DNA of 64,000 bases from Methanosarcina sp. 2.H.T.1A.6 (GTDB lineage: Archaea; Halobacteriota; Methanosarcinia; Methanosarcinales; Methanosarcinaceae), in contig NZ_JJOY01000038.1 of NCBI RefSeq assembly GCF_000979455.1, positions 24,682 through 88,681 on the forward strand. The letters run 5' to 3'. Position 1 is the first letter of the stretch. Every line of letters begins with the position of its first letter. Position numbers and translations under genes: made by a program. The notes below the pieces were generated by a model. That model made no database searches, was not told the origin of the DNA, and saw only the letters and a list, made by a program, of their open reading frames with translations. Below, piece by piece: positions 2,063-11,964 of the stretch.

Positions 2063-3445
2063 TTAATCGGTTTGTATGTCAGCATTTGCTGCTGTTTTTT
2101 GTGCAACTTCTTTTGGGTCTTCCACTTTTGTCCTGTACCAGTAGAGGGGGAACACGAGTAACAGCACAAGAATTCCCGTAAGTACGTTTTTCCACCCGTA
2201 GGACATGCTGCCTACAACCAGGAAGATCATGTTGATTATCCCTATCAGGATGCTGACATAAACCATGTAGTCAGGGACCCGGTAGGGCCTGGGCAGGTCA
2301 GGGAAGTCTTTTCGCATGAAGTATATAGAGAAGTTGGACAGGATCACGGTTATGAAGTAGCCGATACTGCCTGCGACCACCATGAAGACAGGAGATTCCC
2401 CTGCAGATATTATAAGGCCCGAGTTAAGCAGCATGATGAAGAGCAGCGAGGTCGAAGGTGCCTGTTTTTCATTAAGCTTCATGAACCATTTTGGCATGTA
2501 TCCGAGTTTTGAGGACTCAAACAGGACCCTTGAGGAAGCCACGTAACACATGTTGACGCCGTTCATAAGCCCTATGATTAGCAGGACCCCGAAAATTTTG
2601 GTAAACGCCGACCCGAAGACAGCTTCTGCAAGCGGAAGCAGGGGAGTGAAGGGGTCATTTAAGACCACATCGAGCGGCAGGTACCAGGTCATGGCCAGGC
2701 AGATTGCAACAGTCATGAGCATCATCAGAATTGCGCTGTAAGCGACCGCTTTTTTTGTGTCCTTTACCGGATCCTTGTATTCCGCCGTAAGGGTAAGTAC
2801 GCATTCCAGGGCAAAAGCTGACCAGGCAACCAGGTAACAGGCCCCGAGGAAGGTCATAAGGTGGTTGGCCCCGGGCTGGTTGAAGTCCACCACACTGAAA
2901 TCCGGGGACAGGACCGGAAGTTTTCCAAATGACCCGATAAGGAGGGCTACAGTGGTGATGATCAGCGGGACCATCAGGGACTGGGCTTTTCCTGAAGCCT
3001 CGATTCCCCTGCAGTTCAGGACATAGCAGGCAACAACAATTGCAATTGCTCCGAGTACGATATCGAACTCGGGAATGAAGAACTGGATGAAATATCCCGC
3101 AAAGGTTGCAATCGCAGCCACTGCAAGCCCCCAGCCCATCACGTAACCCCATTCTGAAATTGCTCCCGGGATGGGGCTGCGTTTTTTATACCCTTCCATC
3201 ACGTACATGGCAAGCCCCCCGGCGCTGTCTTTGAACATGAGCGCCATTTCAAGGTATATGAAGCAGGAAATTGCCATGATCCCGACGGTAATGATCCAGG
3301 CAAGAGGAGCCCATTTTCCTACCATGGACACGGCCGGGCCGCTCAGGTAAGTCCAGTCCAGGATGCCTGTTGCAACCATGAACATGCCTATTTTCCAGGT
3401 AACGGCCCGTCTTAAGACGGGCTTGCCGGAATTTTCTTGTGACAT
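2063..3445 (-). CDS. APC-superfamily amino acid/amine permease of the methyltransferase cluster
   Basis: 460 residues with about 12 hydrophobic helices, the 'VTWKIGMFMVATGILDW' first helix and a 'NRVLF'-type loop ('ASSRVLFESSKLGYMP') characteristic of APC transporters. Homologous permeases (MttP, MtbP) accompany methylamine methyltransferase genes in Methanosarcina. Here it is the last gene of the minus-strand run, 13 bp after mtbB, with a GGAGGAAAC ribosome site before ATG 3445. It probably imports the methylated amine or amino-acid-like substrate of the adjacent enzymes. Substrate assignment is inference from context. Confidence 0.85.
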   Translation of the reverse strand: MSQENSGKPVLRRAVTWKIGMFMVATGILDWTYLSGPAVSMVGKWAPLAWIITVGIMAISCFIYLEMALMFKDSAGGLAMYVMEGYKKRSPIPGAISEWGYVMGWGLAVAAIATFAGYFIQFFIPEFDIVLGAIAIVVACYVLNCRGIEASGKAQSLMVPLIITTVALLIGSFGKLPVLSPDFSVVDFNQPGANHLMTFLGACYLVAWSAFALECVLTLTAEYKDPVKDTKKAVAYSAILMMLMTVAICLAMTWYLPLDVVLNDPFTPLLPLAEAVFGSAFTKIFGVLLIIGLMNGVNMCYVASSRVLFESSKLGYMPKWFMKLNEKQAPSTSLLFIMLLNSGLIISAGESPVFMVVAGSIGYFITVILSNFSIYFMRKDFPDLPRPYRVPDYMVYVSILIGIINMIFLVVGSMSYGWKNVLTGILVLLLVFPLYWYRTKVEDPKEVAQKTAANADIQTD

Positions 3446-3458
3446 AAGGTTTCCTCCT

Positions 3459-4841
3459 TTACCTCAATTTTTCCACGCAGGGGATCTCTATTCCCAGGAT
3501 ATCGGCGATCCTGGCTTTGGCCCTGAGCCCTTTTGCAGCCCCGGGGACAGCCATGACGGTGCCGATATCCAGTTCTTCCCGGACTTCCTTCATGCGGTAC
3601 TCGTCCGAGAGTTCAGGGACGCCAACGCCGAGTTTCCCGGCCACGTACTCTTTTGCTTCCTTTATCTTCATGCCTTTCATTTCCATTCTCATGACCAGGT
3701 CCCCGGCCGTCCTCATCCCGTTCATCCCGGAGGCCATGCCGTGGGCCACTGCCATGCCCATGGGGTCTCCGACTCCGATCTATATGCCGTCGACTCCGGC
3801 AAGTTCCACCATTGCCTTAGAAGCTTTTGTCACAGCATCCAGAGGGGGCATTTCTGCCATCGGAAGCCCACCCACCCCCATTCCCATGTTCGGGTGGAGG
3901 GGGATGTTCGCAACCCTGCTGCATTCTTTAGTGAAAGTGATTGCCCTTGCAATGTTCCAGGGTGTTGACTGGCGGGTATTTGTGTTGACAACCGGACCGA
4001 AGATGTCCACTCCGGCTTTTTCAGCCATCTTCACCTGCTTGTGGGGATACATGCCAGCAAGCACATTGCCATCATATTCGAGCCCTCCGTGGATGCCCAT
4101 TACGAACTCCGAAGCCATCCCCATTTCTATGGAAAGGCCGGTTTGCTTTTTCAGCTCTTCGCAGGCCTTAAGAGAGCTCAGGAAATCCCCGTCCCCGGCA
4201 GCTCCGGTAGTATCTATATTAATACAATCGACACCGACCCTGGTAAGCTGCTCGCTTACCCAGACGATATCCTCTTTTGCATGGTCCACGAGCCTTTCAT
4301 AAACCTCCATGCCTTCCAGGATTTTACCTTCGGCCATGAGATCCCCGACGTTTTCGAAAGGCCCGTCAGGCTTGTAGTACCCTCCGAGGTTTGGCATTGC
4401 CCCGTAGATGCAGGGGCTGACCGTGTTCATAAGGATGGACTCAAGCTCCTGCTGGTGCTGGGTGATTACGGCTTTTGCGGCTTTGAAACAGAAGTCCAGC
4501 CAGCCGTAAAAGACCGAATCAAATCCAAGGGCCCTTTCCATCAGCATGTTTGCGGTAACGCTGTGGATAGGAAGCCCCACGCCCCCGGCTTCGCTAAAGT
4601 TGCCGTAGAGGCTGTGGCAGCCGTTATCCGTGCTGAACACCACCGTGTTTTCGGGCTCCACACTTGCAACCCTTTCCGGAGAGATCATGATGTCCAGGAG
4701 GCGTTCCTGGGCGTCTTCGCTCAGGGCAGAGATTTTACCCCTTTCGGCAGCATCATTGCATCCGGCTTCGATATCCCTTATCATCTCCTCTTTTGACATT
4801 TCGACTAATCGTCCATCTCCCATTCTTTCCTTATACGCCAT
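3459..4841 (-). CDS. mtbB: MtbB-family dimethylamine:corrinoid methyltransferase with in-frame amber (Pyl354)
   Basis: A 460-residue protein if the TAG at 3780-3782 (codon 354) is read as pyrrolysine. The flanks VELAGVDGI-[Pyl]-IGVGDP match the diagnostic MtbB site. The upstream half carries MtbB landmarks 'YGAMPN', '[11 protein letters not shown]', '[10 protein letters not shown]' and 'GMGVGGLP'; the part after the amber ('[17 protein letters not shown]', 'EELDIG', 'VPGAAKG') completes the fold. MtbB moves a methyl group from dimethylamine to the Co(I) corrinoid of MtbC. ATG 4841 is 9 nt after AGGAGG; the in-frame TTG at 4850 is less likely. It lies 33 bp behind mtbC. The sequence looks clearly diverged from the classical MtbB recalled from M. 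barkeri, so a related secondary amine is possible. Confidence 0.93.
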
Positions 4842-4874
4842 GCTTTTCAACCTCCTTTGAAAATCTCCCTTTTT

Positions 4875-5525
4875 TCACTGTGCAGCCATCAGTTCCCTGG
4901 CTTTAGTTACGGCTTCGCTGGCGTTTTCGGCGTATGCGTTTGCCCCGATCTTGTCAGCCCAGTACTGGGTACAGGGAGCTCCTCCCACCATGGTTTTTAC
5001 CCTGTCTCGGATGCCGGCTTCCTTCAGGAGTGTTTCCAGATCTCCCTGGGCCTGCATGGTTCCTGTCATCAAAGCGGATGAAGCCACAATGTTTGCATTG
5101 AACTCTTTTGCCTTTTCGACGAATCTGCTCAGCAGGGCATCTCTACCCAGGTCGTGGACTTCGAACCCGTTCACGGAAAGCAGGATCTTCACTATGTTCT
5201 TTCCTATGTCATGCACGTCCCCTTCCACGGTACCTATGATCACAACTCCATTCTTTTTAGTAGTCTGTTCAGGGGACATTTTATCCTGCAGGCTTTGCAC
5301 GATCTGAGTCATCAGGCCTGCAGCCATCATGACCTGCGGTAAAAACAACTCTCCCCGCTCGAAGAGATCCCCCACTTTCTGCATTCCGGGAGACAGGCCT
5401 TTTTCAATGACCTCAATTGCTTGCAGCCCCTGGGCCAGCGCGCTTTCGACCGTCTGAACCGCGGTTTCCCGATCTACTTTCACAATAGATTCGCGGATGA
5501 TTTCCAGTAAGTTTTCATTGCTCAC
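4875..5525 (-). CDS. mtbC: MtbC-type methylamine corrinoid protein
   Basis: 216 residues: an N-terminal four-helix cap (about 1-90, with 'GELFLPQVMMAAG') and a Rossmann-like B12 domain with the cobalt-ligating DVHDIG motif (His lower ligand) within 'GTVEGDVHDIGKNIV', ending in the 'VGGAPCTQYWADKIGANAYAENA' signature. It carries the methyl group between a substrate methyltransferase and a MtbA-type CoM methylase, none of which is in this window. It is first in the mtbC-mtbB-permease run and has a GGAGGGAAT ribosome site before ATG 5525. It is closely related to the MttC-type protein at 7340-7990. The mtbC label rests mainly on linkage to mtbB. Confidence 0.9.
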   Translation of the reverse strand: MSNENLLEIIRESIVKVDRETAVQTVESALAQGLQAIEVIEKGLSPGMQKVGDLFERGELFLPQVMMAAGLMTQIVQSLQDKMSPEQTTKKNGVVIIGTVEGDVHDIGKNIVKILLSVNGFEVHDLGRDALLSRFVEKAKEFNANIVASSALMTGTMQAQGDLETLLKEAGIRDRVKTMVGGAPCTQYWADKIGANAYAENASEAVTKARELMAAQ

Positions 5526-5831: not shown

Positions 5832-7322
5832 TTACTTGAGAAATTCCTTGTCTCGCCTGGCAACGAATGCCTCAAGGTCCTTTACCACATCCCTGTCTAG
5901 GCCGCAGGGGTTGTGGTTTTCCAGGATCCACTCTACTTTTTCATGGGCTGCAAGTGCAGCATCCTTTGCCCCATTTCTTTCCCAGGACCCGCGCATGTTG
6001 CGGTCGAAGATCAGGGGATTGGACTGCTCATTCATGTTTTTCCTTGTGGATGCCCTAGAAATGAAGTGTCCTCCTATCCCGACTTCTTCTATCTCGTCCA
6101 GAGACAGGCGGCTTTCCGTCACATGCATCCCCTTAAGCAGGTTTTTGATCATGCCGATTACGTCGTTGTCTATGACCAGCTGTTCCAGGGAAATCGTCTG
6201 CCCCATTTCCAGCAGGCCGCCTCCGAAGATCAGGTTGGCTCCGGCAAGGGCGGGAATCATTCCGGTCATGCCTTTTTCGAACCCTGCCTGGGCATCGGGG
6301 ACCTTGCTGTCGGTCCAGCAGCCTGCCGCATCCCCGCAGGGAATGCCGTAGAACTGGGAGAGCCGGGCAACGGCAGCACTTAAAAGCGCCATTTCCGGAG
6401 CCCCGCCGGATGCGGTTCCCCTTCTCAGGTCCATGATGGTGGTTGCGGAACCGTAAGTCACAGGTGCCCCTTTGTTTGCAATCTGGGCGAGGGTTATGCC
6501 TGCCAGCACCTCCGCATTCTGGGTAAGGAGCGTGCCTTCCAGGGTGATCGGGCCCGTTCCGCCTGCCATAGACATGCTGATCACAACATCCGGGATCATG
6601 CGCCGTGCAGCTTTTATCGTAATCTGGGTGCTGTTTTCGCAGATCTGGAGAGGGCTTGTGGGACAGTTGCACACATTGATAAGCGGCCTCTTCCTGGCAA
6701 GTTCTTCATCCCCTCCGTATACGATCTTTGCCATTTCGAAATAGTCATCAAAACCATCGGACTCAGGTTCCCCGAAGGTAAAGGGCTTTGTGGTATTGCA
6801 AAGGGCAATCTGGACCTCATGCAGGTCGGCCCGCCCTTTCTCTGTCCAGTCCCTGGCTGCAATGGTGGGATCGGCTACGCTGAAACCGTCGCACCAGTCG
6901 CAGATGGTCATGGATTTCTTAAGGTCGGCTTCGGTGGAAGCCCGGACCTTGTGCTTCCCGTTTGCATCGAATTCCAGGCACTGGATCCCTACTCCGAAGG
7001 GCGCCCAGTTGACATAGGGCCCCGAGCGCAGGACAAGGTTCTTCTTTTTGTCGATAGCTGCAAGCCTCACCCTGCCAGGGGCGGACCGGAGAGCGTCTCC
7101 TACCAGATATTCCGGGATTTTGGCCACACACTTTTCAAAGTCCACTTCACAGCCCGCATCCGCATACAGCTGCAGGGCTTCAGGGTCTTTTGTTTCAATC
7201 CCTACATTCTCCAGCACGTCCATGGTAATTTCATTGATCAGCTTCAGGTCTGATTTATTTAGCATTTCAAGCCCGAGCCCTTCAATATGTTCCAGGCCGG
7301 CCGGAATGTTTGCCCTTAACAT
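5832..7322 (-). CDS. mttB: MttB paralog with Trp336 in place of pyrrolysine
   Basis: 496 residues, the usual MttB length, full-length similar to the Pyl-bearing gene at 8029-9528. At the family's pyrrolysine site the sequence reads AAGC-W336-TDSKVPDAQAG: codon TGG (6315-6317) where the neighbour has TAG, a one-base difference. The rest of the TIM-barrel is intact ('CNCPTSPLQ', 'MAGGTGPITLEGTL', 'MGQTISLEQLVIDND', 'EVGIGGHFI'). Pyl-less MttB relatives such as glycine-betaine methyltransferase MtgB use other quaternary amines without Pyl, so a changed substrate or a structural role is plausible. ATG 7322 follows AGGAGGT by 8 nt and starts 17 bp after mttC. Confidence 0.92.
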   Translation of the reverse strand: MLRANIPAGLEHIEGLGLEMLNKSDLKLINEITMDVLENVGIETKDPEALQLYADAGCEVDFEKCVAKIPEYLVGDALRSAPGRVRLAAIDKKKNLVLRSGPYVNWAPFGVGIQCLEFDANGKHKVRASTEADLKKSMTICDWCDGFSVADPTIAARDWTEKGRADLHEVQIALCNTTKPFTFGEPESDGFDDYFEMAKIVYGGDEELARKRPLINVCNCPTSPLQICENSTQITIKAARRMIPDVVISMSMAGGTGPITLEGTLLTQNAEVLAGITLAQIANKGAPVTYGSATTIMDLRRGTASGGAPEMALLSAAVARLSQFYGIPCGDAAGCWTDSKVPDAQAGFEKGMTGMIPALAGANLIFGGGLLEMGQTISLEQLVIDNDVIGMIKNLLKGMHVTESRLSLDEIEEVGIGGHFISRASTRKNMNEQSNPLIFDRNMRGSWERNGAKDAALAAHEKVEWILENHNPCGLDRDVVKDLEAFVARRDKEFLK

Positions 7323-7339
7323 ATTTTGTAACCTCCTTT

Positions 7340-7990
7340 TTATGCTACCAATGCCTTTGCTTTGGCAACGGCATCGTTTGCGTTTTCCGCATAGATATCC
7401 GCACCAATCTGGTCTGCCCATTTCTGGGTACAGGGAGCCCCTCCAACCATCGTTTTTACCTGGCCGCGGATTCCGGCTTCTTTTAGCTGTTCCTCAAGCT
7501 GGACCTGGCAGACCATAGTGGTGGTCATAAGGGCGGAGGAGGCAACAATATCCGGTTTGAACTTCTGTGCACTTTCAACGAACCTGGAAATTGCCACATC
7601 CTTTCCGAGGTCGATTACCTTAAACCCTGCAATCCCGAGCATCGAGGCCACAATTTCTTTTCCGATCGAGTGGATGTCGCCTTCGATCGTACCGATTACT
7701 ACTTTGCCCAGGCTCTTACTTTCTTCAGACCGTTTTTCCATTTCGGGTTTCAATACGGCAATGCCCGCGTTCATGGCTTCCGAAGCTGCAAGCACATGCG
7801 GTAAAAAGAGCTCTCCTTTTTCGAACTGCCCGCCTATGAACTCCATTGCCGCAGTAAAGCCCTTTTCAATAACTTCAAGGGGGCTTATCCCCTCTTTAAG
7901 GGCTTCATGTGCTGCCTTTTCAGCCATATCCTCATCAAAGTCCAGAATCGAATTTTTTGCTTTTTCGATAATTTCGTCTTTTACTGTCAT
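7340..7990 (-). CDS. mttC: MttC-type trimethylamine corrinoid protein
   Basis: 216 residues. The cap domain (1-90, 'GQFEKGELFLPHVLAASEA') precedes a B12-binding domain with the D-x-H-x-x-G motif DIHSIG inside 'GTIEGDIHSIGKEIV', 'SSALMTTTM', and the terminal 'VGGAPCTQKWADQIGADIYAENA'. It lies between the two mttB genes (38 bp after mttB-Pyl, 17 bp before mttB-W), so both probably methylate it. Role: methyl carrier from amine methyltransferase to a coenzyme M methylase. Naming relies on position; the MtbC-like protein at 4875-5525 is similar. Confidence 0.9.
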   Translation of the reverse strand: MTVKDEIIEKAKNSILDFDEDMAEKAAHEALKEGISPLEVIEKGFTAAMEFIGGQFEKGELFLPHVLAASEAMNAGIAVLKPEMEKRSEESKSLGKVVIGTIEGDIHSIGKEIVASMLGIAGFKVIDLGKDVAISRFVESAQKFKPDIVASSALMTTTMVCQVQLEEQLKEAGIRGQVKTMVGGAPCTQKWADQIGADIYAENANDAVAKAKALVA

Positions 7991-8028
7991 TTTTTCATAT
8001 CCTGTTTAATCGATAGTTAAAATCCTCC

Positions 8029-9528
8029 TCAGACCAGCTGCCTGAGAAATTCTTTGTCTCGCCTGGCAATGAATGCCTCAAGTTCCTTTACCACGTCCCT
8101 GTCTAGGCCGCAGGGGTTATGGTTTTCCAGGATCCACTCTACTTTTTCATGGGCTGCAAGTGCAGCGTCCTTTTGCCCGTTTCTTTCCCAGGACCCGCGC
8201 ATGTTGCGATCGAATATCAGGGGATTGGACTGTCCGTTCATGTTTTTCCTTGTGGATGCCCTGGATATGAAGTGCCCTCCGATTCCGACTTCCTCTATCT
8301 CGTCCAGAGACAGGCGGCTTTCCGTTACATTCATTCCCTTAAGCAGACTGTTGATCATGCAGATTATGTCGTTGTCTATGACCAGCTGTTCCAGGGATAT
8401 CGTTTGCCCCATTTCCAGCATGCCACTGCCGTAAATCAGGTTTGCTCCCGCAAGGGCCGGTAACATTGCGGTCAGGCCTTTTTCAAACCCGGCCTGGGCG
8501 TCCGGCACCTTGCTGTCGGTCTAGGAACCGGCTACATCACTGCAGGGAATTCCGTAGAACTGGGAAAGCCGGGCAACAGCAGCTCCGATAAGGGCCATTT
8601 CAGGTGCTCCTACAGATGCGGTCCCTTTTCTCAGGTCCATGATGGTGGTCGAACAGCCGTATGTAACCGGGGCGCCCCTGTTTGTGATCTGGGCGAGGGT
8701 TATGCCTGCCAGCACTTCCGCATTCTGGACCACGAGGGTGCCTTCCAGGTTTACCGGACCCGTGCCTCCCGCAAGGGCCATGCTCAGCACACAGTTAGGG
8801 ATGTTCTGCCTTGCGGAGTTGATAATCACCTGGGACCCATTGCTGCAGAACTCAAGAGGGCTTGTAGGGCAGTTGCACATGTTTATTAGAGGTCTTTTTC
8901 GGGCAAGTTCCTCGTCTCCCCCGTAGATTATCCTGTTTAGCTCAAAATAGTCATCAAAATGTGTTCCGTCGGCTTCCCCGTAGGTGAACGGCTTGGTGGT
9001 GTTGCAAAGAGCGGTGCCCAGTTCATGGAGGTCAGCCCTACCTTTTTCCAGCCAGTCTCTGGCCGTGACCGTGGGGTCTGCTACATTATAACCCTCACAC
9101 CAGTCGCAGACCGTCATGGACTTTTTGAGGTCAGCTTCGGTGGAGGGCCGGACTTTATGGTTCCCACTGCGGTCGTATTCGAAGAACTGGATCCCTACCC
9201 CGAAAGGTGCCCAGTTTACGTAGGGTCCCGAGCGCAGGACAAGGTCCTTCTTTTTGTCGATGGCTGCAAGCCTCACCCTACTAGGGGCAGACCTAAGGGC
9301 CTTTTCAACCACATATTCCGGGATTTTTACCACATGCTTTTCAAAGTCTACCTCACAGCCCGCATCCGCATATAGCTGCAGGGCTTCGGGGTCAGTGGTT
9401 TCAATTCCGACGTTTTTCAGTACATCAAGGGTGGCTTCGTGAATGGCCTGCAGGTCCGATTTCGTTAATATGTTCAGGCCGAGCCCTTCAATATGCTCCA
9501 GGCCTGCAGGAGTGTTTGATCCTGGCGT
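8029..9528 (-). CDS. mttB: MttB-family trimethylamine:corrinoid methyltransferase with amber (Pyl336) and probable ACG start
   Basis: 499 residues when the TAG at 8521-8523 is read as Pyl336, in VAGS-[Pyl]-TDSKVPDAQAG, the canonical MttB context. The reaction is methyl transfer from trimethylamine or a related tertiary/quaternary amine to MttC. The reading frame upstream shows MttB-like sequence (GLEHIEGLGL) to 9528 but no ATG/GTG/TTG before the in-frame TGA. ACG at 9526-9528 lies 5 nt after GAGGTGAT, and starting there puts Pyl at residue 336, the same number as Trp in the paralog. An internal ATG near 9333 would delete conserved sequence. First gene of the operon. If ACG does not initiate, the gene is silenced by start loss. 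Confidence 0.88.
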
Positions 9529-9660: not shown

Positions 9661-10139
9661 CCGGGAGGATTAAACCTCGGTTCTTCGGGTATTTTTTCCA
9701 CAAATATCATTTTCTGAATTATACTATATAAATATAACTTTTAAAAAAAAAGACATGCATATATAGATTTCGTTTTATCATTCAAAAGGTTTATATCAAA
9801 TAAAAAGAAATTTAAATTTGTAGTCTGAAAAGCGAATCCTATAAATATCATAAAAAATTGAAAATGGTTTTGAGACCGAATTATCAGGCATAAGGAGAGA
9901 TTTAAGATAGAAATTAACGAATTAAAGATCAGCTAACTAAGATTCATTGGTCATCGGTTAAGGAATTTTCTTGCCCGAAAGCTATCGATTTTGCACCAGA
10001 AGTCTACCTTAAGTTTTGGCCTATTAACATGAAATCGATACCCTGTCCCAGCTTACAATAGGATCAAATATTTAATAACTGTTGTGAAGTGGAGGCAATT
10101 TATTACGATTCCTCACTTAACCGAAGACGCATGAACTAA
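9661..10139. other. AT-rich divergent intergenic region
   Basis: No gene was seen. The right part holds a TATA-like AAATATTTAATAA (about 10066-10078) suitable for the plus-strand MtmB-like gene. An isolated 18-nt copy of the core of the 26-bp repeat downstream occurs at 9923-9940. Confidence 0.4.
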
Positions 10140-10191
10140 GATTAACTAAAGATCAGCTAACTAAAGATTAACTAAAGATCAGCTAACTAAA
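10140..10191 (+). repeat. two perfect 26-bp tandem repeats in the leader of the MtmB-like gene
   Basis: Units 10140-10165 and 10166-10191 are identical, each containing TAAAGATCAGCTAACTAA. A third copy of this 18-nt core is at 9923-9940. The array ends 12 bp before the start codon at 10204, so with a TATA box near 10070 it would be in the 5' untranslated RNA. It could be a protein-binding or translational control site; this is inference. Confidence 0.75.
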
Positions 10192-10203: not shown

Positions 10204-11562
10204 ATGTACCATATAATAGAACAGATGTTGAACGGGGAAAAAAGAAAAGAAAATGAACACGATGAACTGATCTACAGAACCAGTTCGGAACTTGTCAAAA
10301 CCCATGACATCTCCTTTGATCCCGGGCATCCGGTACCTTCGGATGTAAAAATGGCTGACAGGGTTTATACTGCAGCCCTTGAACTTCTGGAAAGGGTAGG
10401 CGTTTATTCGATAGATACCGGGAGGGTTATTAAACTCGAGAAGGATGAAATTATCAGCGGCATCCAGAATACCCGCAGTTCGTATATGATAGGAAATGGC
10501 ATTGACAAAACCGATGTTTTCTTCAGGGAATTGCTTGACGACAGGAAACCCGTTATCATGGGTGGGCCCTGTGGAACTCCGATTTCGGTTGATTCCTATA
10601 TCCCGGTTCACCGCTCCTATGCAAAGCTGAACTGTATTGATATCATAGCCCCGGCTACGATATATGAGACGTTTGACCCCCACCTTATGAAAACCCCTCT
10701 CAGCCTTTACACCGCCCACACTGCCGTTACACTCGTAAAAGAGGCGTGTGCCCTTGAAGGGCGCCCTGATATGGGTTTTACAGGACCACCTTCTATCTCG
10801 GATTTGAAAGCTGCAATGGCCATAACCCATCCCAGGTTCATGCGCGAATGGGATGTCCAGGAAATCTACCAGCAGCTTGACCTCAAAACCAATTTCGATG
10901 CCATCACAAAGGCTGTCCATTACAGGAGCATAGGCTGCGTTTATCTGTGCGACCAGGGTTTCATCCTGGGGGGCAGGACGACGGACAGGCCCGAACAGAT
11001 GGCAATTGAAGTGGTGGCAGAGGCGTTGAAAGCCAGGCTCATCCACCAGGGACACATGTACTTTAAGCAGGTCGACGACCTTCGGACAGGAGCAGGGTCA
11101 ACCCTGGAGGCCATGTGGGCTTCTTTCATAGGATCCATGGCTCTCACAAGGAATACCAGATACATCCATGGAACCGACATCAACAATTCGGCAGGCCCCT
11201 GCACAGCCATGATGATGTACGAGACTGCAGCCCAGACTATAGGCAACGTTACCTGCGGCACGGACATTCTTGCAGGCCCCATGCCGAATGAGGCCCATGT
11301 AATTGACCATGCCGGAGGCCTTGATGCCCAGTTGATGGCAGAAGTGGCCGAACTTGCAACAAGTTTGTCCCCGGAAGATGCAAACTTCCTGTGCCTTGAA
11401 CTCTTCAAGCTGTACGAAAACAAGCTGAAAAGGCCGGATTACGGGATGCCCTTTGGGGAATGTTATAATCCCAAAACCCTCGAACCTTCCATGGAATACC
11501 TGGAAAAATACCGCCGGGTGCTGCAGGATATTTATGAGCTTGTGGGTATGGGTTCCGAGTGA
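10204..11562 (+). CDS. MtmB-family methyltransferase lacking pyrrolysine (Thr193)
   Basis: 452 residues aligning with monomethylamine methyltransferase MtmB through most of their length: 'GGPCGTPISVDSYIPVH', 'ACALEGRPDMG', 'SAGPCTAMMMYETAAQ', 'ECYNPKTLEPSMEYL'. In MtmB the Pyl202 context is GRPGMGV-[Pyl]-GPE; here it is GRPDMGF-T193-GPP, codon ACA at 10780-10782, with no amber anywhere in the gene. By eye the MtmB active-site Glu229 is kept and Glu259 is Asp. MtmB normally transfers methyl from monomethylamine to MtmC; no mtmC is nearby. The gene is divergent from the mttB operon. Substrate unknown; a pyrrolysine-independent amine methyltransferase or a non-catalytic relative are both possible. 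Confidence 0.85.
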   Translation: MYHIIEQMLNGEKRKENEHDELIYRTSSELVKTHDISFDPGHPVPSDVKMADRVYTAALELLERVGVYSIDTGRVIKLEKDEIISGIQNTRSSYMIGNGIDKTDVFFRELLDDRKPVIMGGPCGTPISVDSYIPVHRSYAKLNCIDIIAPATIYETFDPHLMKTPLSLYTAHTAVTLVKEACALEGRPDMGFTGPPSISDLKAAMAITHPRFMREWDVQEIYQQLDLKTNFDAITKAVHYRSIGCVYLCDQGFILGGRTTDRPEQMAIEVVAEALKARLIHQGHMYFKQVDDLRTGAGSTLEAMWASFIGSMALTRNTRYIHGTDINNSAGPCTAMMMYETAAQTIGNVTCGTDILAGPMPNEAHVIDHAGGLDAQLMAEVAELATSLSPEDANFLCLELFKLYENKLKRPDYGMPFGECYNPKTLEPSMEYLEKYRRVLQDIYELVGMGSE

Positions 11563-11908: not shown

Positions 11909-11964
11909 TTTTTTGATCAGTATTTTTTGATCAGTGTTTTTTGATCAGTATTTTTTGATCAATG
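11909..11964. repeat. four tandem 14-bp repeats containing TGATCA
   Basis: Units TTTTTTGATCAGTA (11909-11922), ...GTG (11923-11936), ...GTA (11937-11950) and TTTTTTGATCAATG (11951-11964). Each has the palindrome TGATCA, and the T-runs recur every 14 bp. The array lies about 160 bp upstream of the asparagine synthetase start codon. Function unknown. Confidence 0.8.

Follow-up and report, generated by a model that had tools for sequence, protein, structure and literature searches.

An apparent exchange of pyrrolysine for tryptophan in one of two sister mttB genes flanking a single mttC in Methanosarcina

The MttB methyltransferase of Methanosarcina barkeri contains pyrrolysine (Pyl), the rare 22nd amino acid, at residue 334, where it is activated via a water molecule held by Tyr364 and Gly110 (PMC9842639). 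Complete conservation of both residues among Pyl MttB proteins has been reported, and a Y364F substitution in the M. barkeri enzyme drops Vmax from 48 to 1.7 per min (PMC9842639). The corrinoid protein MttC is gripped by a loop (residues 396-452) contributed by the adjoining subunit (PMC9842639). Those non-Pyl relatives of MttB that have been characterised demethylate quaternary amines, and Pyl-TMA is regarded as a mimic of such an amine (PMC6855144, PMC8604678, PMC12155760). All non-Pyl MttB enzymes described in the literature consulted are distant from the Pyl enzyme and therefore give little information on what Pyl adds. Within the MtmB family, the non-Pyl homolog MtqB demethylates tetramethylammonium and choline (PMC13044021), and gene duplication followed by Pyl loss has been called a "theoretically possible" route to new substrates (PMC13044021, 2026). 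A codon exchange with the opposite outcome, the gain of an amber codon by neutral drift, has been described for Thg1 of M. acetivorans (review PMC2933860).

A 64,000-nucleotide stretch of the genome of Methanosarcina sp. 2.H.T.1A.6 (hereafter the window) encodes two mttB paralogs that are 80% identical in pairwise alignment (Table 1). The original prediction had placed TAG at codon 336 of one copy (the Pyl form) and TGG at the same codon of the other (the Trp form), with the pair flanking a single mttC; translation confirms both coordinates and the residue number, and mttC does lie between the two genes. Alignment with an MttB structure, which the prediction had also suggested, equates codon 336 of both genes with Pyl334 of M. 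barkeri MttB (PDB 7xcl). Canonical MttB proteins are 45-47% identical to the pair, as measured through the Trp-form sister. Both proteins score above the curated cut-offs of TIGR02369 (cut-off 525; Pyl form 610.7 bits, Trp form 573.3 bits) and of PF06253 (Trp form 303.6 bits, Pyl form 302 bits). Annotation based on TIGR02369 would label the Trp form as a TMA methyltransferase, a warning for its use. The source genome (4.07 Mb) has a PylS gene with an adjoining tRNA-Pyl(CUA) and, elsewhere, two canonical mttB genes with TAG in addition to the pair. Short tandem repeats are found beside the divergent MtmB homolog at 11909-11964 and 10138-10189, with 14-nt TTTTTTGATCAGTA units and 26-nt AAGATTAACTAAAGATCAGCTAACTA units.

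Table 1. Coordinates of the mttB pair, its neighbors and the features within them (window positions)
Feature	Position	Strand	Remarks
APC-family amine permease	2063-3445	-	Profile match
mtbB, dimethylamine-type methyltransferase	3459-4850	-	TIGR02368; start uncertain, 4835 or 4850
In-frame TAG of mtbB	3780-3782	-	PYLIS_2 match 3683-3782
mtbC, second corrinoid protein	4875-5525	-	Profile match
mttB, Trp form	5832-7322	-	Intact 496 aa ORF, ATG start, GGAGG upstream
Homogenised tract, Trp copy (codons about 374-480)	5883-6203	-	Covers dimerization/MttC-binding loop
Phe366 codon of Trp form, at place of Pyl-activating Tyr364	6225-6227	-
Trp336 codon TGG of Trp form (Pyl position)	6315-6317	-
mttC	7340-7990	-	TIGR02370, B12-binding domains; sole corrinoid protein gene between both mttB
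mttB, Pyl form	8029-9528	-	499 residues if read from ACG
Matching homogenised tract, Pyl copy	8089-8409	-
In-frame TAG, Pyl336 of Pyl form	8521-8523	-	PYLIS_3 match begins here
Presumed start codon ACG, Pyl form	9526-9528	-	Preceded by Shine-Dalgarno-like GAGGTGAT
Divergent non-pyrrolysine MtmB homolog (family of MtqB)	10204-11562	+

A species-genome scan recovered a matching mttB pair, likewise carrying TGG at codon 336 of one copy, in STD2_68, a Methanosarcinaceae MAG of another genus (L009/G031:C9, contig JAQVBP010000050.1). Gene order in STD2_68 is that of the window, namely the divergent non-Pyl mtmB homolog, mttB-TAG, mttC, mttB-TGG, mtbC, mtbB-TAG and the permease, and the Trp forms of the two genomes are 86% identical. 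The pair is known from these two genomes only, with no further copy in 112 genomes of the family, a 393-genome sample of the phylum or the species-genome scan. Every match at E<=1e-100 in the phylum sample holds one TAG, except the Trp form.

A 48-sequence MttB tree places the four pair genes in a single clade (98/99), in which the Trp and Pyl forms are sisters, and the Trp form is nested with its Pyl sister inside the Pyl family. Outside this clade every sequence in the tree, including a bacterial one, has TAG, except a distant non-Pyl gene (L075:3832-5280), and all other MttB found at >=41% identity have TAG at the Pyl position. Because every near relative carries TAG, the Trp state is most simply read as derived by Pyl loss, and a change from Pyl to Trp is the shortest account by parsimony. 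The opposite direction, from Trp to Pyl, was rejected by the same parsimony argument, with the near relatives, bacterial one included, all having TAG. The Trp form also matches PYLIS_3, the Pyl insertion sequence of mttB (gathering threshold 38), at 6218-6317 on the minus strand, where the match starts at TGG and scores 71.0 bits, apparently as a relic; the Trp form of STD2_68 likewise matches from its TGG (70.3 bits), and the Pyl form of the window matches at 8424-8523 on the minus strand, at TAG, with 74.6 bits. PYLIS_3 was absent from the one distant non-Pyl mttB that was tested. The match in the Trp genes reflects mainly sequence conservation and is no proof of a working element. Comparison of the window with STD2_68 reveals strong purifying selection on both copies, with dN/dS values of 0.097 (Trp form) and 0.088 (Pyl form). 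The value falls to 0.006 over Pyl-form codons 337-375, directly after the amber codon, an argument that translation continues past TAG.

The residue equivalent to Tyr364 is Phe366 in both Trp forms and remains Tyr in the Pyl form, whereas Gly110 is retained in both. Further changes in the Trp form include A251S, S293A, V306G, V332A and M370L; at positions 67, 251 (beside Met249), 293, 306, 332 and 370 it deviates from a residue that its paired Pyl form has in common with the Pyl relatives. A natural Pyl-to-Trp exchange around one mttC, as originally proposed, is upheld and given its direction by parsimony, but its premise that all other MttB landmarks are intact in the Trp form is refuted by the loss of the activating tyrosine and by these additional changes. 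Thr111 is replaced by Val in both copies, at a position that is variable in other Pyl MttBs too. One canonical-clade Pyl MttB (L035, G102:C67), one of two copies in its genome, also has Phe for Tyr364, together with Val for Met in the same loop, so Phe alone is compatible with Pyl. An AlphaFold model of the Trp form (pLDDT 88, pTM 0.88) superimposes on 7xcl at 1.5 A (TM 0.92) and on MtgB (9yce) at 2.3 A (TM 0.88).

Among the four genes, informative nucleotide sites over residues 1-375 number 86 in support of ortholog, 25 of paralog and 16 of cross grouping, versus 0, 27 and 3 over residues 376-475 (Fisher p 1.3e-14 for the two patterns, with the boundary picked after inspection of the data). 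The best-tract score was reached by 0 of 5,000 permutations. Protein trees give the same division, with paralog grouping rejected for the N-terminal part (p-AU 1e-66) and ortholog grouping for the C-terminal part (p-AU 0.0002). These patterns show a barrel (1-375) that groups by ortholog and a C-terminal tract evidently homogenised between the copies by gene conversion within each genome's lineage. The tract starts four residues past the last active-site difference and spans the dimerization loop (396-452 in M. barkeri), which suggests that two divergent pockets have been kept on a common interface serving one MttC.

The Pyl form has no in-frame ATG, GTG or TTG at its N-terminus in either the window or STD2_68. 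At the place of the window's ACG, the STD2_68 gene has ATT (L009:3614-3616), preceded by GAAGGTGA. N-terminal codons 2-65 of the Pyl form are constrained (dN/dS 0.22), and a standard start codon lies nearby in all other mttB genes checked. Translation of the Pyl copy is therefore likely to initiate weakly. STD2_68 has tandem repeats upstream of its Pyl-form mttB (L009:3395-3500) and between the Pyl form and mttC (5130-5250), with none at the matching places of the window.

Alignments, trees and codon comparisons document the duplication, the derived loss, the conserved Trp and Phe, selection on both copies and the conversion tract. From these a history of the locus may be proposed. An ancestral amber-bearing MttB-type gene was duplicated around its mttC, one copy retaining Pyl while TAG became TGG in the other. 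The Pyl-activating site of the Trp copy was remade by the change of Tyr364 to Phe and the other substitutions, with gene conversion within each lineage keeping the C-terminal dimerization and MttC-docking loop alike in both copies. The preferred reading, to which we give an even chance by analogy with described enzymes, is that the Trp form may be a working corrinoid methyltransferase that shares MttC and demethylates a quaternary amine directly, without Pyl-imine chemistry. Both proteins would pass methyl groups to the Co(I) corrinoid of their shared MttC. For the Pyl form the methyl donor would be a tertiary amine bound as a Pyl adduct; the substrate of the Trp form would already be quaternary and need no adduct, and the Trp side chain may occupy the Pyl cavity and pack against the ammonium methyls. 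Together with MtbB(Pyl), MtbC, the divergent MtmB homolog and the permease, the two enzymes could carry out successive or parallel steps that strip one methylated amine, and we infer a pathway in which methyl groups are removed step by step from a quaternary amine that is not glycine betaine. The quaternary-amine step is proposed by analogy with enzymes only about 31-33% identical to the Trp form.

Three outcomes had been put forward for the Trp form: a new specificity, regulation of the Pyl form or a mixed complex. A new specificity, or second active site, is favored by the conservation of W336 and F366, the purifying selection and the unconverted barrel, although conservation would also be expected of an inactive partner protein. 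The common interface makes sharing of MttC plausible, and possibly mixed oligomers too. The main rival, which we consider unlikely, holds that the Trp protein is mainly structural or regulatory and pairs with the Pyl protein in mixed hexamers as a loop donor for the Pyl subunit. The dimerization loop is homogenised in both genomes, each MttC in MttB docks on one subunit while the other subunit of the dimer holds it with its loop, and the weak, non-ATG start could make Pyl subunits scarcer than Trp subunits, all of which would suit such a partner. Conversion follows equally, however, from one shared MttC or from sequence similarity, and the conserved remodelling at W336, F366, A251S and M370L better fits a working pocket than a silent one. 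It is improbable, in our estimate, that mixed Pyl/Trp hexamers operate on one MttC in such a way that Trp subunits take the quaternary amine and pass the tertiary product to Pyl neighbors, with the Pyl dose limited by the non-ATG start. Similarly low in probability is a Trp form that has retained, without Pyl, the demethylation of a tertiary amine such as TMA or of another small methylated compound. Its retained overall fold and MttC interface and its score above the TIGR02369 cut-off would be in keeping with such an activity, but tertiary amines are believed to owe their quality as methyl donors to the Pyl adduct, the tyrosine that helps adduct formation is also gone, and two canonical Pyl MttB genes are already present in the genome. 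A sequencing error or a decaying pseudogene copy, suggested by TGG being one transition away from TAG, was rejected as very improbable because a second genome, of another genus, has the same TGG pair and the same Phe, and because the ORF is intact with the low dN/dS given above.

The divergent MtmB homolog belongs to a 10-member subgroup of non-Pyl MtmB homologs (including L071, L072, L076, L077, L080 and L082) found repeatedly in the neighborhood of divergent Pyl-MttB, Pyl-MtbB and corrinoid proteins. Several members lie near Pyl MtbB and divergent Pyl MttB with corrinoid proteins in four genomes (G027, G056, G061 and G039), and one lies close to MtbB in G031:C115. These clusters may represent another methylamine gene set of the Methanosarcinaceae, parallel to the first and made up of MtmB-, MtbB- and MttB-type enzymes. 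The mttB pair looks like a case of duplication plus Pyl loss of the kind so far considered in theory. It combines Pyl loss inside the Pyl family, at 80% identity between the sisters, with one corrinoid protein shared by the two and a correlated substitution of the tyrosine that activates Pyl. Such natural sisters allow a direct test of Pyl function through exchanges at residues 336 and 366, and they offer a natural experiment on what pyrrolysine is for.

The methylamine pathway is already known; this Pyl-loss variant was not found in the literature searched, nor was any report of a Trp/Pyl exchange in MttB. The pair resembles the Pyl MttB of M. barkeri (7xcl/7xcn) in fold, in the hexamer/MttC loop region, in Gly110 and Met249 and in its adjoining mttC. 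The Pyl form also keeps Pyl and Tyr364, whereas the Trp form has neither, and both copies differ from M. barkeri MttB, to which identity is 46-47%, in Val for Thr111 and in one additional residue (Cys329) ahead of the Pyl loop. MtgB, MtpB, MtcB, MtyB and MthB, the non-Pyl quaternary-amine members of the MttB superfamily, are like the Trp form in lacking Pyl and in their fold. MtgB lies on a distant branch, however, at 31-33% identity, and has Leu at the place of Pyl. Its predicted glycine-betaine ligands Y94, N199, R309 and H345 correspond by alignment to Val111, Asn219, Gly330 and no residue in the Trp form. Since these ligands are mostly absent, the Trp-form pocket is not MtgB-like and glycine betaine is an unlikely substrate; an ordinary MtgB-type enzyme was rejected on the low identity and the missing Arg and His ligands. 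MtqB sets a precedent, in a methanogen, for a Pyl enzyme having a relative that lacks Pyl, but in the MtmB rather than the MttB family, which it shares with the MtmB homolog of the window. Proximity of MtmB homologs to pylS in five genomes did not single out the MtqB subgroup. Thg1 of M. acetivorans resembles the pair in that a single codon of a methanogen able to decode Pyl has switched between amber and sense; Thg1 acquired Pyl at a site that is not essential, whereas in the mttB pair it was lost at the catalytic site together with its activating tyrosine.
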